From a virus: DNA of 33,442 bases. Below are positions 5,652 through 33,442 of this stretch, piece by piece; the first letter of the stretch is position 1, and every line of letters starts with the position of its first letter. Location of the stretch: positions 1-33,442 of IMG/VR virus record IMGVR_UViG_3300025120_000262; one strand, 5' to 3'. The notes below the pieces were generated by a model. It did not search any database. It saw only the letters and a list, made by a program, of their open reading frames with translations, and was not told where the DNA came from. A program made the position numbers and the translations under genes.

Positions 5652-5659
5652 TATAAATA
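5652..5659 (+). promoter_or_regulatory. TATAAATA, T4-type late promoter octamer
   Basis: An exact match to the T4 late promoter octamer, read by the gp55-type sigma in T4. It lies only 4 bases before the gp25 start. With T4 spacing the transcript would begin about at the ATG, giving a leaderless or truncated message, so use as a promoter for gp25 itself is uncertain. Confidence 0.5.
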
Positions 5660-21500: not shown

Positions 21501-23083
21501 CAAGTGGTAGTTTTGCAACTGCAATAACATTTGATAGCACATATGGTGCAACTGATTGGATTACGTTTGTGGCACTAGGTACAACTACACCAACACAGTA
21601 TTCATGGAGTACACCACTAGTACAATATATCATATACGATGGTTCTAGTTTACTTGATGCTCTTACAAATGAATTAGGTGGTACAAATCAAGCCAATATG
21701 GTTGTGACTCGAGAAGGGCAAAGACTTCGTCCACCAGAAGGTATCGAATACACAGGCGATGGTTCAAGCGCCGGTCCATATTATATAAGCACAACCGGTC
21801 TTAGCAATCAAGGATTGGTATCTGACAATGATATGCTAGTATATGTGGATAATGTAAAACAAACTCTTGCAGTTGATTATAATCTAAGTGCATGGGATGG
21901 ATCAAGCGATAGATATATTGAATTTACTGTAGGTAGTATGCCTCCTGCTAATAGTGATATAAAGATTTTCACAACCACTGAAGCTGATTATATCTTGCTT
22001 GGCGATCAACTAGACCTACGTGTTAGTGCGGCTGCTAATGCACAGTTTGGAGTGTACACTTACAATGATACTGCTCAACAAAACATACTTACAAAAGTAT
22101 TTGTTGGACCAACAACCGAAGGTGTTACAACTGGCGACGCTTTTGACGAGGTGCCTTTTGACAGTGCAGAGTTTGATAAAACAATTGGAACAACTATACA
22201 AACTAATAACTTTGCACTTGGTAGACTAGTAACAAGTCCTGAAAGACTCGTGGTTACACTTAATGGTTTCTATATTGAACAAACTGAATACAGTTTATCT
22301 ACTGACGCAAATGATAAAACAACTTTAATCTTGGATAGAAGTATTTTAAACGCCGCTGATGTGTTAGCCGTAACAATGACAACGAATACAGTTGTACCTA
22401 ACAGTTTGAATTTTAGAATTTTCCAGGACATGCTAGGAAATCAAAAGTTGTTGAGAATGAACACTAAAAATACAACACAACTTACACAAGATTTAACTGC
22501 TAGTGCAGATGTTATATATTTCCAAAATGTAAGCAAACTTAGTGAACCAAATCTAGGATCAAATATATTTGGTCAGGTAATGATTGGTGCAGAAAGAATT
22601 ACATATAGAACAAGAGATACAGGCAACAACACAATTAGTGGATTGCGTAGAGGAGTAGCTGGCACAAGTGCAATGGCTCACAGTACAGGCACTATTGCAA
22701 GTGATATTGGTCCCGGAGAACAATTGCCTAGTGCATATCAACAGAGCACCACGACAGACAAAACAAATGTTGGTGATGGTACAACCACTAGATTTACAAC
22801 AAGCATAACAGTACCAACTGGTTTAGACAGTACAGAACTTGCGGAATCAATTACAGTAACAGTTGCAGGAGCAGTGTTAGTTCCAGAAACTGATTACACA
22901 GTAACAGGCGTAGATACAACATCTACAGAAATAACATTAACTGTTGCTCCAGATCCTAATGTAGAAGTTTGGTTTAGCCAGGTAACTGCAAAGGTAATGT
23001 ACGCACAAGGTACTAATACTGCAAGTAATGGAATTGCACTGCAAGATCAGACCACTGCAGCAGTATTATTCCTTAAGAGTTAA
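9509..23083 (+). CDS. Giant mosaic tail/baseplate structural protein (4524 aa)
   Basis: A single uninterrupted frame of 4524 codons. The N-terminus (SEDFLPEIFQTAANKQLLRS, then a TEGYIGRKIGPG motif, and DLDKY-type text ending YYWVPEGP) matches the pattern of very large virion proteins encoded just after gp6 in T4-like marine phages; position corresponds to T4 gp7. In order: a cupredoxin-like segment (about 180-250), acidic PFD-x-x-x-FD motifs, a chitin-binding-like module (about 1795-1835), FG-GAP repeats (about 2210-2900), a conserved block with SEQPAPDWLFKTSLIDV and VSEYINEVKPYHVQVREF (about 3455-3515), paired GSGY repeats (about 3590-3650), a second chitin-binding-like module (about 3675), and several strand-rich 'YTGDGS...V-x-VNG' modules to the end. 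It likely forms outer wedge, pin or adsorption structure. GGAG at 9494-9497 supports the start. The family is clear; the exact T4 equivalent is not. Confidence 0.8.
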   Translation: MAKRIRSEDFLPEIFQTAANKQLLRSTLDQLTQNPKLKPTEGYIGRKIGPGVTASDSYVLEPTANRTDYQLEPGVVQLRPNTNTVSNAITYPGIIDSLELQGADVTRDDRLFDSEHYSFDPFVDFDKYVNFSQYYWVPEGPNSVDVFGNAIPIRDTFDVAYTQDGYTFSGEPGALPTLTFVRQGEYTFDVNASGHPFFIQSVPGTSGVLPQQPNQSSRDVLGVTNNGDDVGTVVFTVPNKTDQNFYFTLADIGSTDLVEDTLQFNQINNVFVDVFLEEHGGIDGITDLQNRTLIITTDTDTGWEVLTPFDDTLFDQDNPGIPNAAFDNSVAIATNPERYVQWRINFNYADPLRPFMELTKVQDVANLSKTNIEYGTEYAGVTMYKDAEGDFVRQPLLTANLDILYYQDGNAEGNFGVIRLVEQANSSDLLIEDIIGKTVYTSPNGVVFTNGLKVQFIGSVVPTSYENKEYYIEGVGTSIELLPVTDFITPETYTISTTVPFDSTAFDEGNFDSTNNAPTVQDYMIINRASIDQNAWSRGNRWFHIGVLEATAIYNNIALVINNDNRAKRPILEFRKSLKLFNYGTLATPAVDIIDFTETDAFSNINGTIGYSVDGYDFVAGSRVIFANDLDAEVRNKIYTVSFVDFGDSSVDVIDLQPASLTTPDIPTNTNVIVTSGITLQGKSYWFNGTTWISGQQKTGVNQAPLFDIFDSSGYSFSDTTVYPSTTFAGTKLFSYAVGTGTTDSIIDQPLKYLTIANVGDIVFDNNLYVDTFVYVNGTVSVTKNIDTGTVRQYNTISTFDKLLGWQTSFETNTQRQSFNFDYNGTPLVLDIEVLSDTSKIPVKVFVEGQFVLPNTYTYATNSDNVTVITFNPNVLGQPDTVPVTGAIVEAQVLSNSPSSIAFYTIPSNLESNAMNENSKDFTLGTVRTHYESICQNLENFTGKIHGNNNVRDLGNVVPYGDLILQQSAPVTMMTNFINGRDYEFFRAIEFNSSEYNKTKNKILDYVANNDWSGKTTAQILDATLLGINAGKTESSPFYWTDAIPSGNTFETTTYTITPITTYVFDTLNSYDLTSANYKGILVYYTPKSTGIQTILVGDGHEYTVATDGPRITINSTEITLSIGDIITINEYATTYGSYVPATPSMMGLYSIYRPQEFLDNTYVTPTNVIQGHDGSLTVAFENGDFRNNVLLEFEKRIFNNIKINEVERYDPPLQAVDVIPGQFRTTDYTLTEVNNILNVSFLAWVGENRVPYKNQTYIKDDAFTWNYSQSENRLSDVPLLGFWRGIYFDLYDTDSPHTRPWEMVGLSVKPTWWQTTYGPAPYTSGNTVLWNDMAQGIVAYPTGNVIRTQYIRPELLQCIPTDSQGNLVPPIDSIVGSYDVDSFEKSWVAGDMGPTEDAWRRSSYYPFAIQRLLALTKPAQYFSLFADRDLWKYNTEFNQYLYNNRFRIDPSVISVYGNGTSKNSYINFIVDYNRITGLDSTTALTATLANMDIRLCYRMAAFSDQGYLKIFSEKSSPNSLNSSLLLPDESYQLFLYQNPSFAEVQYSSVTVQRTSGGWSVSGYSTVKPYFEILQSTIAGTFSTITVNGNTVRIAESFTKNVIQVPYGYVFATANAVVDFLVSYGQLLTQQGLTFDTTENQVILDWTQMAKEFLYWVGQDWIVGSIINLNPAANVLKLEKPNSVVESLANENINDVMLNQNFGPLLGKDYAVERLGNELKLIGVNNQTFSLLSARFTSYEHIIVFDNVSIFNDLIYQPITGARQNRLLLNGNTVFDWNGTLDAQGFILNQDNIEEWVANTSYTKGQIVLYKNAYWSATRLLSPSETFVFADWIKSDYAQIQTGLLPNLATKADSLRENYDIHTANLEKDSTLLGLGLIGFRPRQYMQNLNLDDISQAGLYSQFLGTKGTITAAENFTSANLGKEEAEYEIFENWAIQRGIYGANANRSYFELRTDESKLLSNPSTIAVIDPQEVSTANQTVLVEDIWKQSYNITNKNILPTVTTIPEDVSLPSAGYVNYDDVDIKVFDYNDLTNILANLDTISLGTNIWVAKANSYDWNIFRTNLVPASVISVIDNLNETSTITFDVNHGLSVNDRIIIKYFSAAVDGAYIVGTVPGLKTITLTLSLAGETVSVTGDGRAFILESVRVAQASDVANLSFANNIVPGNQAWVDNNGNDKWTVLQKINPFSTPTDLEATTPVINDLYGTTVSQGLRNQGLLIGAPGHNSSKGGLYALGKDTSGSYIQVALIAPTTTGFVGFGTSLSVGKSDWAVAGAPASDTNKGYALAVNRNSTDGTYTQQQLFNTGTNDADKFGTSVAISADERWMYIGAPADNKVYAYSKVEVQSQKLEYTGDGSTTAFVIEPTIVVNASDATATTQIGVTVNNIPQTGGGVDWTLSTVSGVQRITFNTALNQGDELRIIRLQSATYFPSVSTTDFSFSTLFTASDIYSFSVYHDNILLRPFFDYTIVGTDVVLGSGVTGTVLISANTHWDFVNTFTAAGLDATDQFGYDISTTTDGRQVIIGTPDATIGTNTLAGESYIIDRSVERFQVTTASTTTQNFTVTETPTAPIAVTLNGTFLNPTGNANDAQFSVAGSVVTIGTTANPVTLQIGDIIEVETNIFKTIQQFNSTLNGASYYFGQTVDICSTNCSAYIAMPNDSVVVPEGGSVERWINQNRLFGTITGTVANPVLTATDSIRINNYYVTLTGTTVASLVTDITTANLPNITAQSVDGALQITLENVIAGEQFIKLQVAPGEGTAFADLGLTPWVYAQTITAPIAQVYGHFGTSLKIDDSATTLVVGAPDATASLPTTFDTDTTYFDSRSTTVIDPLDQSGVAYTYNYLSSANSSATNPGKFVFGQQIYDTTMTSLDKFGSAVDYYDGILLVGAPNDDLNDSSGDFGRVTQLTNTNKESAWKPIYTQQPIVNASLLNSVFTYNKGTNEVTTYLDFIDPLQGKILGAAQANIDYTGGIDPAAYNTGTVNNYGSQWTTTHLGEMWWDLSTVRFIDYHQDTIEYKARRWGQLFDGSSVDIYQWTKNTVAPADYTGEGEVYTTESYVITSELDSAGTFITYYYYWVKGLLAVSPNKTLSSVGIAQYISNPRSSGISYTAAISPSTISLYNCRNLFSAKDTILHVEFDKIENNDNVHSEYDLITVGNAKSFLGGNLYRKFLDSYCGEDTLGNLVPDATLSVADKYGVSFRPRQSFFINRFLALENYMDRANRIMKLYPISDSKSFKLLNSEEPEPTSASGEWDKRLLTYAELTYQDLRQVAVGYKYLIASDSTQEGLWTIYTVQAEQTLLLSRVQNYDTKLYWSYVDWNGTNADFTTYSSANASTYDVKVYSDLLALTDVADGVWATVEANSFGKKEVYQYSTTTSEWTRVFLEDGTVAIDTTVWNYADGNFGFDVEVFDAQRFSQAPNIETRQILKALNEEIFTTDLQKFRNELLILTFEFIMSEQPAPDWLFKTSLIDVNHKIRDLIEYPIYRRDNQDFVSEYINEVKPYHVQVREFNLRYEGEDTYNGSITDFDLPAYYDSLRGQFVSPILDDSENPKSLSAVPSTSAVWQTFPWSQWYDNYKLVVKSVTVLTSGSGYTVAPQVIVTGDATTQATMSATVNTAGEVIRINLVTAGSGYITTPTLTISGGNGTGATAIAVLEPQQVRDFTTTIAYDRITYTSQVVDWTANTAYTANQLVRFPVPTVGVINASLPQVYNVTTNFTSGTAFDPDNYTVVDPATLDGADRTIGLYTPEANEPGRELAQVMSGIDYPGVQVEGPNFNQNTGFDVGNFDINPYDNIDIGPEGLPTYDPGILDVIYESQFSDTYLGTRSTDINIEGGGFIDTYSSHAPEELIPGSEFDTLDLKVYTRPGSDWNADGHGFDIATINVVYNGAGTTLDFTSAMLHPFGIQVIDITTGIVTPPSAYTIDWVNKVVTLGATMPSSVGNSIAVKVYGIGGGSQIYKESIVGTDVVSNVASIPVVFSQIHEMVIFVNGAVITDYTFAASGSFATAITFDSTYGATDWITFVALGTTTPTQYSWSTPLVQYIIYDGSSLLDALTNELGGTNQANMVVTREGQRLRPPEGIEYTGDGSSAGPYYISTTGLSNQGLVSDNDMLVYVDNVKQTLAVDYNLSAWDGSSDRYIEFTVGSMPPANSDIKIFTTTEADYILLGDQLDLRVSAAANAQFGVYTYNDTAQQNILTKVFVGPTTEGVTTGDAFDEVPFDSAEFDKTIGTTIQTNNFALGRLVTSPERLVVTLNGFYIEQTEYSLSTDANDKTTLILDRSILNAADVLAVTMTTNTVVPNSLNFRIFQDMLGNQKLLRMNTKNTTQLTQDLTASADVIYFQNVSKLSEPNLGSNIFGQVMIGAERITYRTRDTGNNTISGLRRGVAGTSAMAHSTGTIASDIGPGEQLPSAYQQSTTTDKTNVGDGTTTRFTTSITVPTGLDSTELAESITVTVAGAVLVPETDYTVTGVDTTSTEITLTVAPDPNVEVWFSQVTAKVMYAQGTNTASNGIALQDQTTAAVLFLKS
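16140..18200 (+). repeat. FG-GAP-like repeats inside the giant protein
   Basis: Translated repeats, not DNA repeats. Six GAP-type cores are visible at protein positions about 2210-2900: LLIGAPGHNSSKGG, WAVAGAPASDTNKG, DKFGTSVAIS with WMYIGAPADNK, DQFGYDIS with VIIGTPDATIG, HFGTSLKIDDS with LVVGAPDATAS, and DKFGSAVDYYDG with LLVGAPNDD. This is the FG...GAP pattern of integrin-alpha-type beta-propeller blades. Two strand-rich modules separate the third, fourth and fifth cores, so the blades are not strictly contiguous. Confidence 0.7.
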
Positions 23084-23114: not shown

Positions 23115-23774
23115 ATGGAACAAGAAACAAACAATGAGGCCATAGTGGATCAAGAAGACGAAAAACGTCCAAATGAAGCAGGACAACTTGCTATAAGCGG
23201 GCATATCAAAATCTTTGACCCTAACAGCGGCGAAGTTATTGTTGACAAAAGAAATGCCATTCACTATGAAAATATTAGTGAAGCATTGGCAAACAGTTTG
23301 GCCAACAAAACAGTTGGACAAATTTACAGTATGGCTTTTGGCAATGGCGGTAGTAGTGTTGACCCAACTGGTGTTATCACATACTTGCCACCTAACACAA
23401 CAGGACAAAACGCTAACCTGTATAATCCAACCTACTCAAAGGTAGTAGATGATAACAGTGCAAGTAACACTGATGCTAGTAGTAATAATTTAACTGTCAC
23501 ACATACCACTGGTAAGGTGTATACAGATATACTAGTCAGTTGTTTGTTAGACTATGGTGAACCATCAGGGCAACAGGCCTTTGATAACTCAACAGATTTT
23601 AACGGCGACTACGTATTTGACGAACTAGGATTAAAGACTTGGAACGGAAGTGCAACAGACCTTAGATTGATAACACATGTTATCTTTCATCCTGTTCAAA
23701 AATCACTGAATAGACAAATACAAATTGACTACACAGTGCGAATACAAACATTAACTAATCTTAGTGCAACATAA
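23115..23774 (+). CDS. Conserved tail/baseplate structural protein
   Basis: A 219-residue protein with an acidic, Asn/Glu-rich first 20 residues followed by a conserved-looking body: GHIKIFDPNSGEVIVDKRNA, then HYENISEALANSLANK, then a MAFGNGGSSVDPTG loop, and near the C-terminus SCLLDYGEPSGQQAFDN and HVIFHPVQKSLNRQIQIDYT. I recognise this pattern as a small structural protein encoded near fibre genes in T4-like marine phages, but I cannot name a T4 equivalent (the gp8-gp10 region is where it would fall). No signal peptide or membrane segment is seen. It sits 31 bases after the giant gene and 28 bases before the fibre-like gene, in the same late block. Structural assignment is by pattern and context. 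Confidence 0.6.
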   Translation: MEQETNNEAIVDQEDEKRPNEAGQLAISGHIKIFDPNSGEVIVDKRNAIHYENISEALANSLANKTVGQIYSMAFGNGGSSVDPTGVITYLPPNTTGQNANLYNPTYSKVVDDNSASNTDASSNNLTVTHTTGKVYTDILVSCLLDYGEPSGQQAFDNSTDFNGDYVFDELGLKTWNGSATDLRLITHVIFHPVQKSLNRQIQIDYTVRIQTLTNLSAT

Positions 23775-23802: not shown

Positions 23803-25194
23803 ATGTCATATACCATTAACCTAACAGATGGTACAATATTTGCAGTAGTTGCGGATGGTACTATTAACACAGATTCGAGCCAAACGCTAGTCGGAAAAAA
23901 CTACGCTGGATACGGTGAGTTCATAAATGAAAACTATGTACGGTTGCTAGAAAATGCATCCAATACATCAGCGCCAGGAGCACCTTTAACAGGACAACTT
24001 TGGTGGGATAAAACAAACAACGTAATGAAAGTTTACAATGGTACAGTTTTTAAAGTTATATCGGCAGCAACTGCATCAGCATCTCAGCCATCTTCAAATG
24101 TAACAGGTGATTTATGGTTTGACACTACAAACGATCAGTTAAAAGCATATAATGGAAGTTCATTTATAACCATTGGTCCTGCATCAACAAGCGGTGAAGG
24201 AACATCAGGTGCTATTGTTACAACAATCACAGATAGTGCACCAGGTAGTGATCATGTTATTGTACAGATGTATGTTAACAATGTTATTGTTTCAATATTT
24301 TCAAAAGATGCAACGTTTACTCCAGCAGCATCTATATCAGGATTTGCAACAATTGGTCCAGGTTTGAACATGAGTACAACAGTAGCAAACGCAGTATTCA
24401 ACGGAACCGCAACAAACGCTGATACATTAGACACATTAAATTCGACATCTTTTATGAGATCTGATGCAGCCACAAGCAACAATACAAGTATTAGTATTAC
24501 AAGTGATACTGGATTGTATGTTGGCGGAGACAGTGATGCAAGAATATTTGTTAGTGGAACAGATGTATACCATAACAATCAAACACAAGACGGTGATATA
24601 ATTTTTCAAGTCAACGATGGTGGTGTTACAACAACTGCTCTAACACTTGACGGTGCAACTGCTGACGCAGCCATTGCTAAAACACTTACAATTAATTCAG
24701 GCGACGCGGCCACTGCTTTATTAAATGGTGGTACAGCCGGCGTTGGAAATATTGGTACTGCTAGTTTTCCATTCAACATAGTTCATGCTAGAGCAACATC
24801 AGCAGAATATGCTGATATGGCTGAGCGTTTTCATGCAGATGCAGAATATGCCGCAGGAACAATTGTGGAACTAGGCGGTGTAAACGAAGTCACACTTTGC
24901 GTTGAAGAATTAAGTGAAAAAGTATTTGGTGTTGTGTCAACAAAGGCAGCCTACTTAATGAACGGCAGTGCTGGAACAAACGAAACACATCCACCAATTG
25001 CAATGACAGGAAGAGTTCCTGTTAACGTAATGGGATTTGTAACAAAAGGTGATAGACTAGTGAGTGCTGGAAATGGCGTAGCAAGGTCAGCAAACTTGGA
25101 TGAGCTAACAAGTTTTAATGTAATTGGCCGTGCTCTAGAAAGCAAAACAGACGAAGGTCTTGGCAGTATAGAAGCGATTGTTAAGATAGCATAG
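23803..25194 (+). CDS. Tail fibre-like protein with C-terminal autoprocessing/chaperone-like domain
   Basis: A 463-residue protein. The N-terminal 60 residues (MSYTINLTDGTIFAVVADGT, GKNYAGYGEFINENYVRLLE) match a conserved head of fibre proteins in T4-like marine phages. Two copies of a G-x-LW(W/F)D-x-TN-x-x-x-K-x-YNG motif follow (residues about 65-130), then a Ser/Thr/Asn-rich strand-repeat shaft. The C-terminus from about residue 330 (RATSAEYADMAERFHADAEY, VFGVVSTKAAYLMNG, GRVPVNVMGFVTKGDRLVSA) resembles Peptidase_G2-like or similar C-terminal domains that help fibre folding or maturation. It likely acts in adsorption. The start has GGAG 9 bases upstream. Fibre assignment is good; autoproteolysis is only a possibility because no catalytic residue could be identified by eye. 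Confidence 0.7.
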   Translation: MSYTINLTDGTIFAVVADGTINTDSSQTLVGKNYAGYGEFINENYVRLLENASNTSAPGAPLTGQLWWDKTNNVMKVYNGTVFKVISAATASASQPSSNVTGDLWFDTTNDQLKAYNGSSFITIGPASTSGEGTSGAIVTTITDSAPGSDHVIVQMYVNNVIVSIFSKDATFTPAASISGFATIGPGLNMSTTVANAVFNGTATNADTLDTLNSTSFMRSDAATSNNTSISITSDTGLYVGGDSDARIFVSGTDVYHNNQTQDGDIIFQVNDGGVTTTALTLDGATADAAIAKTLTINSGDAATALLNGGTAGVGNIGTASFPFNIVHARATSAEYADMAERFHADAEYAAGTIVELGGVNEVTLCVEELSEKVFGVVSTKAAYLMNGSAGTNETHPPIAMTGRVPVNVMGFVTKGDRLVSAGNGVARSANLDELTSFNVIGRALESKTDEGLGSIEAIVKIA

Positions 25195-25334: not shown

Positions 25335-26294
25335 ATGACATACTCATCAGGCAACACCATTGTAGACGACGACTACAATATTTTCGCTACAGGTAACGCC
25401 GCAGGTACAGGCGATCAATCAGTAGCCAATATTAACTCCATAATTGGACAAGGAAGTAACGAATTTGGATACGGGCAAGGAACTGAGATAACAGCAGTGG
25501 CTGCTGGCGCAGTTGTACAAGCAACAGACTGGGCTACCTTGTTAACAAGAAATACCACACTTGCAAACCACCAAGGAACAACAATTACATCAATTACAAA
25601 TCCATCAACTGGTGATACGATTGCAGCATATGCGGCATTGAGTGCAAATGTCACTGCAACATTTAACGGAAAATTAAATGCTGCAGGTTCAGGATCAGAT
25701 ATCACACGTACTACTTCAACAACAACTAGTTGGAATACAAGTGCAGTACTGACACAAACAGTTACCTTTCCAAGTAGAGCTCAATTGAGATACTTTTTTA
25801 ACGCAGGCGGAATGATTCGTTGTAGTTGGTCAAGGTCAGGTGGTACAACAAGTGATCAAAACACTTCATGGACTAACACACTTACTGCTGCTGGAACAAT
25901 CGCTCTCACAAGTGATGGAGCATCAAAAACTATTGCAGGTACATCCTACACAGGAATAACAAAAATTGGTGGATCAGGTACAAACCAAATATTATTAACA
26001 ACAAATGGAATATATGATATATCTTCTACACCAACAATACAATTTAAACAAATTCCACCTACAGGATATGGCGATAACGAAATTGAATATTATATGAGTA
26101 TTCCAAACGATGGAACAGTGCTTACAATAAAAACAGACTTGTCAGATGATTATACTCCACCAGATCCTGGATCACCAGATTTAGTTGATGGTACACTAAC
26201 GCAGACTTTAGTAGTACGACCACCAAGTACAACTTATTTGTCAGATTCATGGGGAACTCCAGTAATAAGTTCTAACAGTTGGGTACAGTCATAA
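25335..26294 (+). CDS. Putative tail fibre or tail-associated structural protein
   Basis: A 319-residue protein, rich in Thr, Ser, Asn and Gly, with few charged residues and no signal peptide. The N-terminus (YSSGNTIVDDDYNIFATGNA) is followed by an Ala/Thr-rich stretch with coiled-coil-like spacing. The core FPSRAQLRYFFNAGGMIRCS with the neighbouring SRSGGTTSDQNTSW resembles a motif common in myovirus fibre or adhesin-type proteins (R-x-FFNAGG-x-I-x-x-S). A Pro-rich DDYTPPDPGSPDLVDG linker precedes the C-terminal strand segment. It is the last gene before an intrinsic terminator and has its own late promoter and folded leader, so it may be expressed at a separate level from its neighbours. 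AAGGA at 25318-25322 lies about 12 bases before the ATG. Receptor binding is plausible but not shown. Confidence 0.6.
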   Translation: MTYSSGNTIVDDDYNIFATGNAAGTGDQSVANINSIIGQGSNEFGYGQGTEITAVAAGAVVQATDWATLLTRNTTLANHQGTTITSITNPSTGDTIAAYAALSANVTATFNGKLNAAGSGSDITRTTSTTTSWNTSAVLTQTVTFPSRAQLRYFFNAGGMIRCSWSRSGGTTSDQNTSWTNTLTAAGTIALTSDGASKTIAGTSYTGITKIGGSGTNQILLTTNGIYDISSTPTIQFKQIPPTGYGDNEIEYYMSIPNDGTVLTIKTDLSDDYTPPDPGSPDLVDGTLTQTLVVRPPSTTYLSDSWGTPVISSNSWVQS

Positions 26295-26315: not shown

Positions 26316-26347
26316 AAACCCTAGTTTTTATTAACTAGGGTTTTTTT
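26316..26347 (+). terminator. Intrinsic terminator after the tail block
   Basis: An 11-bp perfect stem (AAACCCTAGTT with AACTAGGGTTT, 26316-26326 and 26333-26343) with a 6-base loop, its 3' arm running into T at 26341-26347. It ends 16 bases before the next ATG and separates virion genes from the modification-type cassette. Confidence 0.88.
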
Positions 26348-26363
26348 GTGACTAAGTAAAAAT

Positions 26364-26666
26364 ATGAACACAGAAAACCTCATTAAAAAAATAAGAACTA
26401 GATTTGATCACCAACAGGCAAGAATTGTACTGCGTGAAACATATCAAGCCAAAATGCTTTTTGCACACAATGGCGGTATGTGGCGAGCTTCTCCAGAATT
26501 AATAATGTTGTGCAGTGCATGCTCAGGAGAAGTGGTATTAGAAGATCACTACAATACTCCAGTCAGTGTAGACATTGACGAACTCAAACAACTAGCAATG
26601 CAACTTTGGCAAGAACAAATGAACGCTTGGCAATCAGAATACAACGAAATTTCCAAAAACAGATGA
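26364..26666 (+). CDS. Small conserved-looking phage protein of unknown function
   Basis: A 100-residue protein I cannot assign. It has a basic N-terminus (KKIRTRFDHQQARIVLRE), a YQAKMLFAHNGGMWRASPEL core and an acidic, helical C-terminal half with VVLEDHYNTPVSVDIDELKQ and a Trp/Glu/Gln-rich end. Small proteins of this pattern (AHNGG-x-(F/W), then VLED-x-YN-x-PV) seem to recur near tail genes in T4-like marine phages, from memory. There is no signal peptide, membrane segment or obvious DNA-binding motif. Its TGA overlaps the next ATG (ATGA), so the two are probably translated together. No clear Shine-Dalgarno sequence precedes it, and no good promoter lies in the short space after the terminator, so it may depend on read-through. 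Confidence 0.6.
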   Translation: MNTENLIKKIRTRFDHQQARIVLRETYQAKMLFAHNGGMWRASPELIMLCSACSGEVVLEDHYNTPVSVDIDELKQLAMQLWQEQMNAWQSEYNEISKNR

Positions 26667-27436
26667 CTATAGGTGCTTTACTTTTTGCATTTGATAGTGA
26701 GATTAAGTATACCAAACTTGCTATTGAATGTGCAAAACGCATAAAAAAATATTTAGATATACCAGTGAGTTTAGTAACAGATATTAATATAGAAACTGAT
26801 ATATTTGATCAACAAATTATTGTAGAAAAACCCAGTGATACAAACAAAAAATATCATTTTGATCTAGGAGGATCATCAGCATGGTATAACTTTGGAAGAA
26901 ACAGTGCAATAGATCACACACCATATGATAGAACACTACTAGTTGACACAGACTACATGGTAAACAGTGCAGACTTATCAACTATGCTAGAATGTTCACA
27001 ACCATTTCTTGCTCATAGATCAGTTCAAGAGGTGTTTAAAAATAAAAAACGCATAGATAGATTTGGCACTAAAAATACACAAATGTGGTGGGCAACTGTG
27101 ATTATATTTGATAAAAGCACATTCTCGCAAGATGTATTTGCAGTATGGAAGATGGTGGAACAAAACTATCGTCACTATTCGAATATCTTTGGTTTTGATC
27201 CAAGAAAATTTCGCAATGATTTTGCACTTAGCATTTCATTGTTGCTTTGCAATGGAAATACTATTCCAACACAGTGTGATATTCCATGGCCTTTGTTTAA
27301 TGTAGACCCAGACATCAAAGTAGAACTACTAGATAATAAATGGTGGATAGAACACACAACAAGGCGTATATGTATAGAACATCACGATTTACACGTCATG
27401 GGAAAAACCTATCTGGAGAACTTGTATGCAGTATGA
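26663..27436 (+). CDS. Putative GT-A-type glycosyltransferase (DTD motif)
   Basis: A 257-residue protein. I chose the ATG at 26663 because it overlaps the preceding stop as ATGA; a longer in-frame start at 26606 would overlap that gene by 61 bases and add sequence unlike the family. The N-terminal beta-alpha-beta pattern (IGALLFAFDSEIKYTKLAIE, IPVSLVTD) and the RTLLVDTDYMV segment with D95-T96-D97 fit a nucleotide-diphospho-sugar transferase fold, where a DxD motif binds the metal and sugar nucleotide. A WWATVIIFDKS strand and a Trp-rich C-terminus follow. The substrate is unknown. The next gene has a similar N-terminal layout (LLTD in place of LVTD), so they may be diverged paralogues. It could also be a transferase-fold protein without activity. 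Confidence 0.55.
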   Translation: MTIGALLFAFDSEIKYTKLAIECAKRIKKYLDIPVSLVTDINIETDIFDQQIIVEKPSDTNKKYHFDLGGSSAWYNFGRNSAIDHTPYDRTLLVDTDYMVNSADLSTMLECSQPFLAHRSVQEVFKNKKRIDRFGTKNTQMWWATVIIFDKSTFSQDVFAVWKMVEQNYRHYSNIFGFDPRKFRNDFALSISLLLCNGNTIPTQCDIPWPLFNVDPDIKVELLDNKWWIEHTTRRICIEHHDLHVMGKTYLENLYAV

Positions 27437-28196
27437 AGCAGACAGAGGATACCTCATAGTAGGTAGTGAAGATTATATTGCATGTGCAGAAACGCTTGCA
27501 AAGAGTTTGAGGCACTGGCATCCTGATGTGAACATTTGTTTGCTCACTGATGTTGAATATAGTAATACACTGTTTGATTATGTAAAACAGTTTCCTTATG
27601 GTAATACTGGTGGCTGGACGACTGATTGGCAAGTGTTTGATGCTAGTCCTTTTCATGAAACAGTAAAATTGGAAGCAGACATGGTAGTAAGCGGACCAGT
27701 TGATCATTGGTGGAACCTATATCGCACCAAACCAGTTTGGATATCAACGGGTTGTAGAAACTATCATAACACCACATCGAATAATCGTCGTTATAGAAAA
27801 ATATTTGATAGAAACAATTTACCTGATGTATACAATGCGATAACTTACTGGAGAATGAGTCGTGAAGCTAAGGAATTTTTTACTACTGTAAGACATTTGT
27901 TTGAGTCTTGGAATGAAATTAAAGTAAACATACAAGGTGCTCAAAATGAAAACCCAAACACTGATTTGATCTATGCATTGTGTGCAGATGAATTTGTTAC
28001 TCCAGACGTAGGTCCACAGATTGTACATATGAAACCAGATATATTAGGAACCAGTGCATCTGATTGGAACAAAGAATTAATATGGGAAATAGTTAATGGT
28101 GTAATACGTATCAACGGGCATAACCAACATGGGTTTGTGCATTATCATCAAAAGTATCTAGCCAAGAAACTAGGAGAGTGTTATGATAAATCCTGA
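27426..28196 (+). CDS. Putative GT-A-like glycosyltransferase, related to its neighbour
   Basis: A 256-residue protein overlapping the previous gene by 11 bases, with GGAG 8 bases before the ATG. The N-terminus reads GYLIVGSEDYIACAETLAKS, then WHPDVNICLLTDVE, the Rossmann-like opening of GT8-like or related GT-A proteins. In place of a DxD there is E83-A84-D85 in KLEADMVVSGPVDHWW, a known type of variation at the metal site. The middle is rich in aromatic, Arg and Asn residues (STGCRNYHNTTSNNRRYRKI). The C-terminal part has VHMKPDILG and NGHNQHGFVHYHQKYLAKK, with several His that might be metal or substrate ligands. It overlaps the following small gene by 14 bases, so this run is tightly coupled. 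Glycosyltransferase is an inference from fold pattern; donor and acceptor are unknown. Confidence 0.5.
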   Translation: MQYEADRGYLIVGSEDYIACAETLAKSLRHWHPDVNICLLTDVEYSNTLFDYVKQFPYGNTGGWTTDWQVFDASPFHETVKLEADMVVSGPVDHWWNLYRTKPVWISTGCRNYHNTTSNNRRYRKIFDRNNLPDVYNAITYWRMSREAKEFFTTVRHLFESWNEIKVNIQGAQNENPNTDLIYALCADEFVTPDVGPQIVHMKPDILGTSASDWNKELIWEIVNGVIRINGHNQHGFVHYHQKYLAKKLGECYDKS

Positions 28197-28530
28197 TGAA
28201 TTTAATCAACTGTTTGCAAATATAGTTAAACCAAAAAAACCGGTTGACATCAACTACAGACTATACTATAATAAAGAAACAGGTAAACCTTTACAGTTTA
28301 CAATAGATGAGCAAATTGGTGATTATATTGTAATAACAAAACAACAGTATGCTGAGAGTCGTTATGATAGTGTGGTTATTAATGGAAAATTAACCACAGT
28401 AAATAATGCAGTACGTTGGTCTAAATTAGTTCCAAGCAATGAAGGAGTAGCCTGTGCAGTTAACAATGTAATGATTGTTGATCGTGATAGTTCAACTAAG
28501 TGGAAAATTAAAACCCACGACGCTGAGTAA
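28183..28530 (+). CDS. Small protein of unknown function
   Basis: A 115-residue protein with a strong ribosome-binding site (AGGAGAG) upstream of its ATG, which overlaps the previous gene. The central region (YRLYYNKETGKPLQFTIDEQ, then GDYIVITKQQYAESRYD and VVINGKLTTVNN) is strand-rich, with the look of a small beta-barrel. The C-terminus has KWKIKTHDAE. From memory, similar short proteins occur beside tail genes in T4-like marine phages, but I know no function. There is no signal peptide, membrane segment or catalytic motif. It lies within the cassette, and the next gene starts 23 bases later behind its own ribosome-binding site. Confidence 0.6.
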   Translation: MINPDEFNQLFANIVKPKKPVDINYRLYYNKETGKPLQFTIDEQIGDYIVITKQQYAESRYDSVVINGKLTTVNNAVRWSKLVPSNEGVACAVNNVMIVDRDSSTKWKIKTHDAE

Positions 28531-28533
28531 ATA
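28527..28533 (+). promoter_or_regulatory. GTAAATA, weak late-promoter-like element
   Basis: Matches the last part of the late octamer and overlaps the TAA of the previous gene. It is followed by AGAGGA at 28541-28546, 7 bases before the next ATG. It could drive the secreted-protein gene, but the match is poor. Confidence 0.3.
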
Positions 28534-28553
28534 TAGTTTTAGAGGAAACTATT

Positions 28554-28931
28554 ATGATAAAATTTCTTATACCTATATTTGTAATTCTTTTTGCATACAA
28601 CGCACAAGCACAAACACCGCCACCTAAAGATGGTTCTAAAACACAACTATTGTTAAACATGCAGGTACCATGCAGTGAACAAGGCATTGATTATCTTTCA
28701 GATATAGTAAACAAGCATGGCGAACAAGAGTTCGCAAGTGGAGTAGTAAAAATCAAGCCATTGATGCAACCTGATATGGTTACTGTTGATTTGCTTATGT
28801 ATGTAAATCCTAAAACCAGTACATTTACAATTTTCAGTTATCAAAAAGTTGGTGACTATAACGTTGCCTGCGTAATTGCTGGTGGTAATAAGTTTACACC
28901 ATTCTCAGGAGAATATAGAAAGAATGATTGA
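28554..28931 (+). CDS. Small exported protein with signal peptide, function unknown
   Basis: A 125-residue protein. The N-terminus is a clear Sec signal peptide: a Lys at position 3, a hydrophobic core (FLIPIFVILFAY) and an A-x-A site (A17-Q18-A19) before QTPPP, so the mature part is about 106 residues. It has an exact AGAGGA ribosome-binding site 7 bases upstream. The mature part is soluble-looking with two Cys (C39 in MQVPCSEQG and C106 in NVACVIAGG) that could form a disulphide in the periplasm. The FTIFSYQKVGDYNVACVIAG segment is strand-rich and might be a lipocalin- or beta-domain-like fold. It overlaps the next gene by 8 bases. A role in the host periplasm, such as superinfection control or envelope modification, is a guess. 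Confidence 0.65.
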   Translation: MIKFLIPIFVILFAYNAQAQTPPPKDGSKTQLLLNMQVPCSEQGIDYLSDIVNKHGEQEFASGVVKIKPLMQPDMVTVDLLMYVNPKTSTFTIFSYQKVGDYNVACVIAGGNKFTPFSGEYRKND

Positions 28932-29844
28932 CGTTGCTGATTTAGATTGCATATACTTGAGCTACGACGAACCTCAAAAAGAAGAGTTCTGGATTAAGAT
29001 ACGCAACATGGTGCCATGGGCTAAACGTGTAGACGGTGTACATGGATCAGATGCGGCTCACAAAGCGGCTGCTGATGCCAGCGATACTGAACGTTTTATC
29101 TTGATCGATGGTGATAATTTGCCACAAGAAAGTTTTTTTAACGAAACAATTGAATACAAAGATGAACACTATGAACAAGCAGTGTATCGTTGGAGAGCAA
29201 GGAACAACGTCAATGGACTGATGTATGGCAATGGCGGAATCAGTAGTTGGACTAAAACATTTGTACAGAATATGCGTACACACGAAGCAAGTGCGGGTGC
29301 TGATGACACTGATATAGAATTTTGCTTTGATGATCTGTACTGGCCAATGTACAACTGCTATTCAACAACATACCCAGATGGCAGTGAAAAGCATGCGTTC
29401 CGTGCTGGTTTTAGAGAAGGCGTAAAAATGTGCCTCAATAGAGGAACTAAACCTAGTGCAAGTGACTTTAGAGAAAGTGTACACAATAGAAACTTGGATC
29501 ATTTGACCATATGGCACAATGTAGGTAGTGATACAGAACATGGCTTGTGGGCAATAGCAGGTGCAAGGCTTGGTACATGGAAAACAATGATGAGTAGTTG
29601 GGATTATAAAGAAGTACAGGATTTTGCAAAGTTGGATGCTATCTGGGAAGATGTAAAACATTTACCACCCGGTGAGCTAACAAATTTAAAAGCAAATGAC
29701 CTCAGTCGATCATTAGCACTGCCAATGAATATCTACACACCTGTACAAAGTAAGTTTTTTAAACATCATTACCGTAGTAATTGGCATAATAAAAATATTA
29801 TGACAAAGGAAATTGACATAATTAAGATGCAAGAGGGATGGTAA
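28924..29844 (+). CDS. Putative glycosyltransferase-like protein (DGD motif)
   Basis: A 306-residue protein, started at ATG 28924 rather than 28876: the family-like sequence begins with MIDVADLDCIYLSYDEPQK, AGGAG lies 12 bases upstream, and the longer start would run 56 bases into the signal-peptide gene. The opening CIYLSYDEPQ, then WAKRVDGVHGSDAAHKAA and FILIDGDNLP (D62-G63-D64) resemble glycosyltransferase-like proteins in marine phages, where DxD lies on a GT-A-like fold. The rest is rich in Asn, Trp and His (YGNGGISSWTK, LDHLTIWHNVGSDTEHG). I could not find a clear catalytic base, so activity is not certain. Its stop is one base from the oxygenase-like start, suggesting coupled expression. 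Substrates are unknown. Confidence 0.5.
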   Translation: MIDVADLDCIYLSYDEPQKEEFWIKIRNMVPWAKRVDGVHGSDAAHKAAADASDTERFILIDGDNLPQESFFNETIEYKDEHYEQAVYRWRARNNVNGLMYGNGGISSWTKTFVQNMRTHEASAGADDTDIEFCFDDLYWPMYNCYSTTYPDGSEKHAFRAGFREGVKMCLNRGTKPSASDFRESVHNRNLDHLTIWHNVGSDTEHGLWAIAGARLGTWKTMMSSWDYKEVQDFAKLDAIWEDVKHLPPGELTNLKANDLSRSLALPMNIYTPVQSKFFKHHYRSNWHNKNIMTKEIDIIKMQEGW

Positions 29845-29845
29845 A

Positions 29846-30382
29846 ATGATTGAAGCAGTTAAACTAGATTACGATTATGATATATTTACAAGTGCAGATT
29901 ATAGTGTGCATAGTGGAAGTTGTATTAGTCACCAAGTACATGAACTAACAGATATACATGAACGTTTTGGCGGGTTTCCTGACAGTTACGACTTAGGTAA
30001 CACACTTATTAGACAACTATGGTGGACCAGAGAGCAAGTTGACTTTGAGAAACTAGGCAAGCAATTTGGCATTGAAGTTATAACTGTAAGCAGCATACTT
30101 CAACCTCCAGGCAATATGATTCCAGTACATAGAGATACTTTCTTTCAGATTAAGAAAGCACATCCTAATGATACTAGATTAAAAGTAAGAGCAAATATTT
30201 ACTTGCAAGACTGGGCTATTGGTGAGTTTCTGCAATATGAAAAAGAGGAGGAATGGCATAATTCAACACACTGGAAAGCTGGTGAAGGTTGGATATGGGA
30301 TAGCAAGCACTTACACTTGAGTGCCAATGCAGGCATGAGAGACAAGTACACATTACAAGTAAGCGGTTTTTATAACAGATAA
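29846..30382 (+). CDS. 2-oxoglutarate/Fe(II) oxygenase-like protein
   Basis: A 178-residue protein with a GAGGG ribosome-binding site upstream. It shows the pattern of the double-stranded beta-helix hydroxylases: VHRDTFFQIK gives an H-x-D (H95-x-D97), and HLHLSANAGMRDKYTLQVSG near the C-terminus offers a distal His (H155 or H157) followed by Arg/Lys that could hold 2-oxoglutarate. The strand RANIYLQDWAIGEFLQYEKE between them fits the aspartyl/asparaginyl hydroxylase type. Such enzymes are common in T4-like cyanophages. It shares one base with the next start and follows the DGD protein after one base. Hydroxylation of a peptide or sugar-linked substrate is likely, but the substrate is unknown. 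The distal motif assignment is not certain. Confidence 0.6.
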   Translation: MIEAVKLDYDYDIFTSADYSVHSGSCISHQVHELTDIHERFGGFPDSYDLGNTLIRQLWWTREQVDFEKLGKQFGIEVITVSSILQPPGNMIPVHRDTFFQIKKAHPNDTRLKVRANIYLQDWAIGEFLQYEKEEEWHNSTHWKAGEGWIWDSKHLHLSANAGMRDKYTLQVSGFYNR

Positions 30383-31023
30383 TGCAGGTAAGTTTAATAT
30401 TATTTCCTGTGGGTGCAGGTGGAAATTTTATGTCAAGGGTGTTTAGTTTAGATGAAACTACTGTACCAATTGGCGGGTACCAAGAAGGTACAAACTTTCT
30501 TAACGTACAAGATCGTTACAACAGATATCATTATGATCAGGTTTTAGAAAATACAGGCCAAGACTACAATAAGTTACTAAAAAGCGGACTCACAAAATGG
30601 GTTGACTATGAACTAAACCACATGTATTTTCCGCTAACGTTTGGTATGGAAAAACTTGCTAAACTTAATCAACACATTGTCGAACCATTGCACTTGTGGC
30701 ATCTTGAAGACAAGATGCAATTATTTGGCAAAGACGATCTTATTAAAATATACTATGTAGATTGTACAGATGTTGAAGAATGGGTGTATCGGCAGGCAAT
30801 TACAAAAGGCGGAATGGCAGGCAGTACCATTGCAGATATATCTATTGGATGTAACGCACTACACCAATATGCAAATGAAAAAAAGTTGCAGAGTATTCAA
30901 TTAAAAAGCATCTTATACGACTTTGAAACAGAATACCCTCGTGTGTGCAAAATCATTGGTATTCAGGCACACAAGCAGTATGCGAAACAAATTTTTGACT
31001 CCTGGAAACAAACATGGCAGTAA
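30382..31023 (+). CDS. Small protein with P-loop-like start, possibly sulfotransferase-like
   Basis: A 213-residue protein whose ATG overlaps the preceding TAA by one base. It opens with a strand and then FPVGAGGNFMSRVFSLDE, where P9 to F16 looks like a nucleotide- or PAPS-binding loop of sulfotransferase-type proteins (GAGG-x-F at the end of beta-1). The C-terminus ILYDFETEYPRVCKIIGIQA, followed by a Trp/Gln-rich end, has the helix-strand pattern that closes sulfotransferase-like or kinase-like small domains. The middle (LTKWVDYELNHMYFPLTFGM, EDKMQLFGKDDLIKIYYVDC) is helical. I could not see a second diagnostic motif, so function is a guess, and a kinase-like or purely structural role remains possible. 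Its position between the oxygenase and the GT10-like gene favours a modifying enzyme. Confidence 0.45.
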   Translation: MQVSLILFPVGAGGNFMSRVFSLDETTVPIGGYQEGTNFLNVQDRYNRYHYDQVLENTGQDYNKLLKSGLTKWVDYELNHMYFPLTFGMEKLAKLNQHIVEPLHLWHLEDKMQLFGKDDLIKIYYVDCTDVEEWVYRQAITKGGMAGSTIADISIGCNALHQYANEKKLQSIQLKSILYDFETEYPRVCKIIGIQAHKQYAKQIFDSWKQTWQ

Positions 31024-31031
31024 ATTAGGAA

Positions 31032-32027
31032 ATGATTGAGGTAGTTACAAGCAATACTCAAATCTGGAATATCAACGACGTATGTTCTAAAATTACTGAA
31101 GCAATGGTTACGGACCAAGACATATTAATTGATCTATTCCCTGAAGGACCGGACATCAGCGAAACAGTGCTCGACACACTTATACCTGAATTAGCAAACA
31201 AATATCATTATGATACAAAACGTATAACGGTTGTTACTGCAAACCAAGTGCAAACACACAATGTATTTCAAATTGAATACGGTTCACTAATGCACTTACA
31301 AAAAAATTCACTTGAGTACGAATATAACTATACTAAAAATATTTGTAAACATTTTGGTATCTTTATTGGTCGTAGCAATGGTCCAAGACTAGACTTAGCA
31401 AGTCATCTATACTACGAATTTCAAGATAAAAGTTGTATTTCATATCACTATAGTTTATCAAGTGAGTATCATAGAAGTAATATAGGACTTGAGGAGCTGA
31501 TTACTGATTTTAATCAGTTAGACGTAAGTGTACCAGCACGTTTTTTGAAACACTGTCCTATTGTTGAATCAACAATAGAACCAGTAGTAAATATAGATCT
31601 AAATCCGGCACAGCAATTATTAGAAAATGATAATGAAAAATTTTTAGCAAACTATTGTAACTTTTTGGTTGAAATTGTGTGTGAAACATGTTATAATGGT
31701 AACACATTTTTTCCAACAGAGAAGACCTGGAGGCCAATGCTATTAGAAACACCATTTATTGTACAAGGACCGCAGTGGTATCTACAAAGACTACGAGACC
31801 TGGGTTTTCAAACATTTGATCGTTGGTGGGACGAAGGATATAGTGAAGACCCTGCTAACTGGCAAAATACTGAAATAAAAAAAGTGATTAACTCAGTAAG
31901 TGAATTATCTCTAGAAAAATTACAAGAAATGTATACTGAAATGAAACCAGTGTTAGCACACAACAAGAAACGTTTTTTAGAGCTAACAAGCAAAGATTTT
32001 GATATTTTTAAAAATGACAAACACTAA
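31032..32027 (+). CDS. GT10-like glycosyltransferase family protein
   Basis: A 331-residue protein. The C-terminal half contains FFPTEKTWRPMLLETPFIVQ and a following LQRLRDLGFQTFDRWWDEGY; the T-E-K (229-231) and the PFIV-x-G element are the pattern of the C-terminal donor-binding region in GT10-like and related GT-B phage proteins. The N-terminal half (ILIDLFPEGPDISETVLDTL, HFGIFIGRSNGPRLDLASHL) could hold the acceptor side. No signal peptide or membrane segment is visible. AGGA ends one base before the ATG, too close to be a good ribosome-binding site, so coupling to the preceding gene (8 bases away) may help. It overlaps the radical SAM gene by 14 bases. A sugar transferase role is reasonable; fucosyl specificity is not supported. 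Confidence 0.6.
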   Translation: MIEVVTSNTQIWNINDVCSKITEAMVTDQDILIDLFPEGPDISETVLDTLIPELANKYHYDTKRITVVTANQVQTHNVFQIEYGSLMHLQKNSLEYEYNYTKNICKHFGIFIGRSNGPRLDLASHLYYEFQDKSCISYHYSLSSEYHRSNIGLEELITDFNQLDVSVPARFLKHCPIVESTIEPVVNIDLNPAQQLLENDNEKFLANYCNFLVEIVCETCYNGNTFFPTEKTWRPMLLETPFIVQGPQWYLQRLRDLGFQTFDRWWDEGYSEDPANWQNTEIKKVINSVSELSLEKLQEMYTEMKPVLAHNKKRFLELTSKDFDIFKNDKH

Positions 32028-33442
32028 ACAAAATAAAGGCGATGGCGTTGATGAGAATTTTAAAAGTGATTTTCTTACTGATGCTGAGCAAGCACAACTG
32101 AAATTAGACACAGTGTCTCCTAGCATGTGCTTGGCTAAATGGAAGCAACTGAGTTTGCATTTAACAACAGGTATGAACAACAGTTGTTATCATCCACCTT
32201 TGCATAGAGCAGATGCTGAAGCAATTAAATCTAATCCTGGTGCATTGCACAACACAGAACACAAAAAGCAACAACGTAAAATGATGCTAGAAGGAACACG
32301 CCCGCCAGAGTGTAGTTATTGTTGGGCTATGGAAGACAACGACAAACTCAGTGACAGACACTATCGTTCAGGCGAGCCCTGGGCAATGAAGGACTTCGAA
32401 ACTATAAAAAATGCACAGTGGGACCAAGATATAACTCCAAGTTATGTCGAAGTAGACTTTAACAGTGCTTGTAATCTTAGTTGTAGTTATTGTTCGCCAC
32501 AGTATAGCAGTAGTTGGATGAAAGAAACTACACGCGAAGGTGCATGGCCGACATCAACACCGCACAACGACCCAAGTCATTTTGTAGGCGAAAGACGCCC
32601 TATACCTGCAAGAGAACACAATCCTTATGTTGAAGCATTTTGGAAATGGTGGCCTACACTTTATCCAGAACTTGAACATTTTAGAATGACTGGCGGCGAA
32701 CCAATGATGGATAAGAATACGTACCGTGTATTTGATTATGTGTTAATGAATCCAAGTCCAAAACTACACCTAAGCACAACTTCAAACTTCAGCGTTGAAG
32801 AAAAACTTTGGCAACGCTACAAAGGCTATGTTACTATGCTATGTGAAGTCCCTGATCGTGTTGAACACTTTATGCAGTATGTAAGCCTGGACGGTATGTT
32901 TGAACCAGCAGAATACATGCGACACGGTTTAGACTTTAATCTGCTTTGGGATAGAGTAAACCAGTTTCTAAACGATATACCAGAACGCAATAGTATAACA
33001 TTTATTATTACAATGAACAACCTCAGTCTTACTTCATTACAAAAACTTTTTACAGGCATACTTGGATTGCGACAAATTTATAGTAATACGTATCAACGTG
33101 TTTGGTTTGATACCCCCGTGTTACGTACACCTACTTGGCAGAGTATGCAAATACTTCCAGAGAGTTATGTCCATGAACTTGAAGTAATTAAAACTTGGAT
33201 GAATGCGAATTTAGAAACAGAAGCTACACGTTTTAAAGGTTTCAAGGATTATGAAGTAGCACGGTTAGACAGAGACATTGCTTGGATGCGTGATGGACAA
33301 AAACTAGATCCTGCATACATTAACAAAAACAAAGCAGACTTTTATCGTTTTTTCAATGAACACGATAGACGTAGGGATACGGACTTTTTAAAAACTTTTC
33401 CTGAAATGTCCACCTGGTGGGCCGAGTGTAAATATCTAGCCG
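32014..33442 (+). CDS. Radical SAM protein with SPASM/twitch-like cysteines, 3' truncated by window
   Basis: The frame is open from ATG 32014 to the window end (476 full codons); an in-frame TAA at 31984 and only a TTG between support this start. SACNLSCSYC gives the radical SAM CxxxCxxC at C153, C157 and C160, which bind the 4Fe-4S cluster, and MTGGEPMM (G227-G228-E229) is the SAM-contacting GGE. Before the core lies a set of Cys usually found after it: MCLAKWKQLSLHLTTG (C39), SCYHPP (C58), ALHNTEHKKQQRKMMLEG and PPECSYCW (C100, C103). This resembles a SPASM/twitch auxiliary cluster domain in N-terminal position. The family occurs in marine phages and pelagic bacteria, from memory. It probably modifies a peptide or sugar; the substrate is unknown. 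Confidence 0.75.
   Translation, partial: MTNTKQNKGDGVDENFKSDFLTDAEQAQLKLDTVSPSMCLAKWKQLSLHLTTGMNNSCYHPPLHRADAEAIKSNPGALHNTEHKKQQRKMMLEGTRPPECSYCWAMEDNDKLSDRHYRSGEPWAMKDFETIKNAQWDQDITPSYVEVDFNSACNLSCSYCSPQYSSSWMKETTREGAWPTSTPHNDPSHFVGERRPIPAREHNPYVEAFWKWWPTLYPELEHFRMTGGEPMMDKNTYRVFDYVLMNPSPKLHLSTTSNFSVEEKLWQRYKGYVTMLCEVPDRVEHFMQYVSLDGMFEPAEYMRHGLDFNLLWDRVNQFLNDIPERNSITFIITMNNLSLTSLQKLFTGILGLRQIYSNTYQRVWFDTPVLRTPTWQSMQILPESYVHELEVIKTWMNANLETEATRFKGFKDYEVARLDRDIAWMRDGQKLDPAYINKNKADFYRFFNEHDRRRDTDFLKTFPEMSTWWAECKYLA

Follow-up and report, generated by a model that had tools for sequence, protein, structure and literature searches.

The window analysed here is the entire IMG/VR record IMGVR_UViG_3300025120_000262, one linear viral contig of 33,442 bp. 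Its right end (positions 26,364 to 33,442) carries ten open reading frames (ORFs), g1 to g10, which lie directly 3' of the fibre genes and are the subject of this report. Nearly the same core is found in dozens of large phages that are related to this one, and it is a real module, although what it modifies we can only infer. The fibre genes, the terminator, the element before g1 and g1 to g10 all lie on the + strand. The ten ORFs mostly overlap, and the intergenic gaps run from -14 to +23 nt, in agreement with the original prediction of ten tightly coupled genes following the fibre genes. The same prediction described the cassette as bounded by terminators, which holds for one side. An intrinsic terminator with an 11-bp stem and a T-tract (26316..26343) ends the fibre operon upstream; at the other side the contig ends within the radical SAM gene g10 (32014..33442), and therefore no downstream terminator is visible. 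The starts of g2 and g6 were corrected from 26606 to 26663 and from 28876 to 28924, respectively, because the homologues align from these positions.

Relatives were collected in scans with g9, g7, g3, g8 and g6, which gave 149 loci in 95 sequence clusters, including the window's own locus (L001). From the g6 scan the best 80 of 596 confirmed matches were kept, so that the set of loci leans towards close relatives. We counted core genes in the 47 non-redundant g6-seeded loci that have at least 5.5 kb of upstream and at least 7 kb of downstream flank. All 47 contain the C-terminal part of a 4,524-aa protein, the fibre or structural genes F1, F2 and F3 upstream of the unit, and then g1, g2, g3 and the first radical SAM gene (A), while g4 is found in 42 of them. 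The core is also complete in 7/7 loci seeded with g3. Even the overlaps are mostly kept: g1 and g2 share 4 nt in 42/46 loci, and g2 and g3 share 17 nt in 32/50 loci or 11 nt, as in the window, in a further 6. This repeated core order, together with the overlaps, exceeds what is expected by chance. The order F2, F3, g1, two glycosyltransferase genes, a small gene, g6 and radical SAM gene was furthermore seen, at roughly 28-60% identity, in four contigs binned in marine bacterial metagenome-assembled genomes (MAGs; L150, L151, L152 and L156), which look like phage contigs.

The nearest relative is the contig L002, with 92-93% identity in g2, g3, g6, g8 and g10. Beyond g10 it goes on with genes for a sugar-nucleotide short-chain dehydrogenase/reductase (SDR), for another g9-like protein, for three further radical SAM enzymes and for an MTAN-like protein. 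Among the phages in INPHARED we found no match for the cassette by blastn, nor for g1, g3, g6, g7 and g10 by tblastn, and thus no annotated isolate relative; we judged these searches to be working because the gp6-like baseplate protein did match there. The Moraphages (PMC12619734) were considered as a possible lineage, since four core glycosyltransferase groups are reported for them, and were not adopted because the term radical SAM is absent from the paper.

In the window, the unit is preceded by F1 (23115-23774), F2 (23803-25194), whose C-terminus is weakly Peptidase_G2-like, and F3 (25335-26294). The 4,524-aa protein (9509-23083), which has FG-GAP repeats and a weak match to a carbohydrate-binding module, lies between these fibre genes and upstream genes for baseplate components (gp25-like and gp6-like).

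Two small proteins belong to the core: g1 (26364..26666), a conserved protein of 100 aa encoded by the first gene of the unit, which has the 4-nt overlap with g2, and g4 (28183..28530), a protein of 115 aa. The other core proteins have glycosyltransferase or radical SAM folds and not unrelated non-enzymatic ones. The most conserved protein of the unit is g6 (28924..29844). In its AlphaFold model (pLDDT 88.5), residues 1-153 form a GT-A fold that carries the invariant motif DGDN, and residues 154-306 are an additional helical half. The best Foldseek match was a capsid-linked glycosyltransferase of PBCV-1 (E 1.2e-4), and VIA returned matches with Z up to 9.6 in which glycosyltransferases are mixed with nucleotidyltransferases. 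The matches of both searches to GT-A enzymes cover the first half of the protein, which has the DxD-type motif, and we regard g6 as a candidate GT-A-fold glycosyltransferase, with the reservation that nucleotidyltransferases match too. The paralogues g2 (26663..27436, DTD motif) and g3 (27426..28196, EAD motif, phrog_1903) are candidate glycosyltransferases of GT-A type, and their assignment to GT8 is tentative: a profile of g3 matches glycogenin over about 90 residues (E 0.0015), and g2 is homologous to the g3 family (hhalign probability 99.4%). The profile search with g2 gave no glycogenin match, and neither protein has a Pfam match.

The radical SAM enzyme expected at the end of the cassette was found there. 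Although it is cut by the contig end, g10 scores 299.1 bits against the NCBIfam model NF033640 (N_Twi_rSAM, cut-off 170) and covers positions 1-397 of 398, which makes it a radical SAM enzyme with an N-terminal twitch domain. We found no member of NF033640 with a known substrate. In the g10 family the cysteines C153, C157 and C160 (CX3CX2C) as well as C39, C58, C100 and C103 are invariant; among the family ORFs of at least 330 aa, CX3CX2C and the upstream CxxC are kept in 262/262. The gene is the first of an array, since within 9 kb downstream of g6 there are five radical SAM genes in 28 and four in 12 of 51 loci. A tree of 132 of these proteins has five anciently diverged lineages that match the positions A to E, with g10 in lineage A; the lineage labels require 19 changes on the tree as compared with a mean of 80.5 after shuffling, and none of 200 shuffles gave an equally low number. 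The tree was quickly built and has long branches, and the exact relations between the lineages are unsure. In three MAG-binned contigs the last two radical SAM genes are apparently swapped relative to the A-E order. Members of the family occur in 24/24 larger contigs, with 2 to 19 in each. In addition, a Bdellovibrionaceae chromosome (3.26-Mb contig) has three radical SAM genes of this family in tandem (L162:7357-11374), beside which we recognised no cassette neighbours. A defence role of g10 was also considered; the PADLOC match was weak, of the viperin type and limited to the radical SAM core, and gives no support for it.

After g6, and before the radical SAM array, comes a variable slot, which is empty in 16/51 loci and otherwise holds one to five genes. 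In the window it contains g7, g8 and g9. The first of these, g7 (29846..30382), is a candidate Fe(II)/2-oxoglutarate oxygenase. The metal triad H95, D97 and H157 (HxD...H) is invariant in 23 sequences, in line with the H-x-D oxygenase of the original prediction; the Pfam family Asp_Arg_Hydrox is matched only below its cut-off. g9 (31032..32027), which has paralogues further downstream in relatives, is a candidate glycosyltransferase of GT-B fold (model pLDDT 89.0). Of its description as GT10-like the GT-B fold is supported, and GT10 is one candidate family among several: FucT (Z 8.7) ranks equally with T4 BGT, exostosins and other enzymes, and no Pfam match was seen at E 0.1. For g8 (30382..31023) the P-loop was not found: its sequence VGAGGNF has no GK[ST] and thus no Walker A motif, and no match was obtained in the protein family libraries searched. 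Upstream of g6, g5 (28554..28931, 125 aa) has an N-terminus that by eye resembles a signal peptide. Profile searches of g2, g6, g7 and g9 against solved structures gave nothing credible.

The genes around the core are exchangeable. Among the 47 g6-seeded loci g5 and g7 are each present in 4, and a strong match to g9 is present in 14. Of 19 loci seeded with g7, 7 have g6 and 12 do not; g7 is therefore a widely shared enzyme and not a partner of the core. For example, one g7 homologue lies between IscU-like and A-type Fe-S carrier genes (L028:9631-10854), and others lie 3' of a carbamoyltransferase-family gene (L031, L033, L039). The slot and downstream cargo of the relatives includes dTDP-glucose 4,6-dehydratase-like SDRs, UDP-glucose dehydrogenase, DegT aminotransferases, GHMP kinase, hexapeptide transferases and further radical SAM proteins. 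For one cargo protein (L046:8947-9996) we gave up an assignment as amidinotransferase, since it has neither a Pfam nor an NCBIfam match. An MTAN-like nucleosidase is encoded directly 3' of radical SAM D in the window's clade (L002:15485-16054, L004:20096-20668). A phosphorylase-superfamily match was present in only 7/22 larger contigs, and the link with MTAN is therefore clade-specific. Taken together, the idea of one shared pathway with co-occurring genes is supported for the core (47/47) and is weak for g7, g8 and g9, which like g5 are not obligate members.

Similar terminator hairpins are found at the junction of F3 and g1 in most relatives. In most non-redundant relatives the terminator is followed by TTTAC[TC]-17 nt-TATAAT-6 nt-ATG, where the ATG is the start of g1 and the -35 hexamer is often inside the T-tract of the terminator (for example in L094, L109, L133 at 7447-7522, L142 and others). 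Altogether a predicted sigma70-type promoter precedes g1 in about 40/53 relatives; 27/53 upstream regions score at least 10 of 12, compared with 0.8% of shuffles, and no other gene tested reaches this score except F3 (3/59). The short distance from TATAAT to ATG puts the transcript start near the AUG, and the g1 mRNA in the relatives is thus likely leaderless. The window's own clade has no sigma70-type hexamers and carries TG[AG]CTAA[GT]TA at the position of TATAAT, about 16 nt before g1 (window 26349-26358, L002, L052, L054, L085, L070 and L093). In the window this conserved element reads TGACTAAGTA (26349..26358), and a promoter function for it is a guess. A different element, TATAAATA, occurs in the window at 5652 and 25199, and 30 of its 44 occurrences in all are at most 60 nt upstream of F2. 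It contains TATAAAT, the T4 late promoter motif (PMC3037559). By these sequence patterns, a sigma70-type promoter at the start of the unit in most relatives and T4-type late promoters often at F2, the operon looks to have a transcription of its own, apart from that of the fibre genes.

What could such a unit do? With about even confidence we read it as the first part of an operon devoted to modification, a glycan-type module that belongs to the host-recognition region of a large aquatic phage, T4-related and uncultivated. The glycosyltransferases would assemble a short glycan; on it, or on its carrier peptide, the radical SAM enzymes would carry out C-H chemistry, and the slot genes would vary the finished structure between phages. 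In the window's clade the MTAN-like nucleosidase may clear 5'-deoxyadenosine, a by-product that inhibits radical SAM enzymes (PMC8102628) and that MTAN-like enzymes can remove. The most likely substrate would be the neighbouring fibre proteins, because the fibre genes adjoin the unit in all core loci tested; that the host's envelope is remodelled in infection would be a close second.

The closest alternative, which we consider possible and somewhat less probable, is that the operon remodels a host surface glycan (the core or O-chain of the lipopolysaccharide, LPS) during infection, for example to block co-infecting phages. The separate sigma70-type promoter in about 40/53 relatives, apart from the late fibre genes, favours the host envelope, and so does the precedent of the pelagimyophages, for whose GT8-type glycosyltransferases this role is proposed (PMC7029224); the sugar-nucleotide genes in the slot fit as well. 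On the other hand, the linkage to the fibre genes is invariable, we recognised in the unit neither a membrane enzyme nor a flippase, a polymerase or a lipid-carrier transferase, and host glycan remodelling alone leaves five conserved radical SAM enzymes unexplained. We put the fibre slightly ahead of the host envelope as the target.

Several points weigh against a glycan-type module acting on the fibres. The glycosyltransferase calls rest on folds and weak profiles, with nucleotidyltransferases mixed into the GT-A matches. A sigma70-type promoter for the unit in the relatives, as opposed to the TATAAATA late promoters that are often seen at F2, is at least as compatible with an earlier role, directed at the host, as with decoration of the virion. 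Peptides are the substrates of many SPASM/twitch radical SAM enzymes that have been characterised, and a glycan therefore need not be the substrate here. Furthermore, the fixed order could be explained by joint inheritance of one region and not by one pathway, and the substrate of the modification is itself something that we infer.

A more specific form of the fibre reading seems rather unlikely to us as it stands: the five radical SAM enzymes would form an ordered assembly line with g2, g3 and g6 that modifies the phage's own fibre proteins, and the slot would alter the outer decoration. If it were true, the enzymes would by radical chemistry alter a sugar, epimerise a residue or form a cross-link, and the operon would be a phage-encoded system for post-translational modification of the virion. 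That the array instead matures a ribosomal peptide or small protein (for example g1, g4 or a fibre tip) by cross-linking or epimerisation, with the glycosyltransferases as separate neighbours, appears improbable. Peptide maturases are indeed found among the SPASM/twitch enzymes (PMC8326336, PMC6231123), and the core does contain two small conserved proteins; yet g1 and g4 lack a Cys-rich or repeated pattern of the core-peptide kind, we recognised no precursor-like gene beside the array, and the glycosyltransferases occur together with radical SAM A in 47/47 loci. Least credible is a hypervariable region whose loosely linked cargo, the slot genes and the array, is retained for different metabolic reasons and yields no common product. 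The widely differing slot content speaks for this, as do the many phages that have g7 but no core and in which IscU/A-type carrier or carbamoyltransferase genes lie next to g7; against it stand a universal core, a fixed order of anciently diverged paralogues and conserved overlaps and promoter.

Finally, we compared the modification operon with known systems, as far as the accessible parts of the cited papers describe them. The host recognition cluster (HRC) of pelagimyophages (PMC7029224) likewise combines tail fibres, GT8-type glycosyltransferases (a tentative assignment in our case) and radical SAM genes, and as here the radical SAM cassettes lie in a region that varies among T4-related aquatic phages. 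The HRC is found between VrlC and gp14 in phages of a SAR11 host, and our unit is likened to it by gene content alone. A similarly high number of radical SAM genes is known from the marine T4-like TARA_ERS488813_N000010 (PMC5332604), which has 12 of them as well as Fe-S genes; that account gives gene counts only and does not describe an operon, an order of paralogues or a link to glycosyltransferases. The LPS clusters of the cyanophages P-SSM2, S-SM2 and S-SSM7 (PMC3037559) are also large blocks for glycan synthesis in T4-like phages, but they lie near hli03 or phoH, whereas our unit adjoins fibre genes and has radical SAM enzymes. With the glycosyltransferase of PBCV-1 that is linked to capsid glycosylation (PDB 2p6w, 2p72, 2p73) g6 shares the GT-A fold only (11-14% identity, TM 0.3-0.4), and it has the extra helical half. 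In the literature searched, from which subscription journals were mostly missing, we found no earlier description of these features: a fixed core, an ordered array, a single variable slot and a junction of terminator and promoter. Glycosyltransferase and radical SAM genes of aquatic T4-like phages have been noted before, but as variable cargo. A core tied to the fibres and five ancient radical SAM lineages in near-constant order, with their catalytic cysteines kept in every copy tested, point to strong selection on this chemistry in a large-phage lineage that is widespread, and they narrow the search for how phage virions or host surfaces are modified to a few testable genes and candidate substrates. 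The unit is a variant of the pelagimyophage HRC type: the HRC island is called non-syntenic, whereas here we see a fixed core, an ordered five-member radical SAM array and one variable slot.

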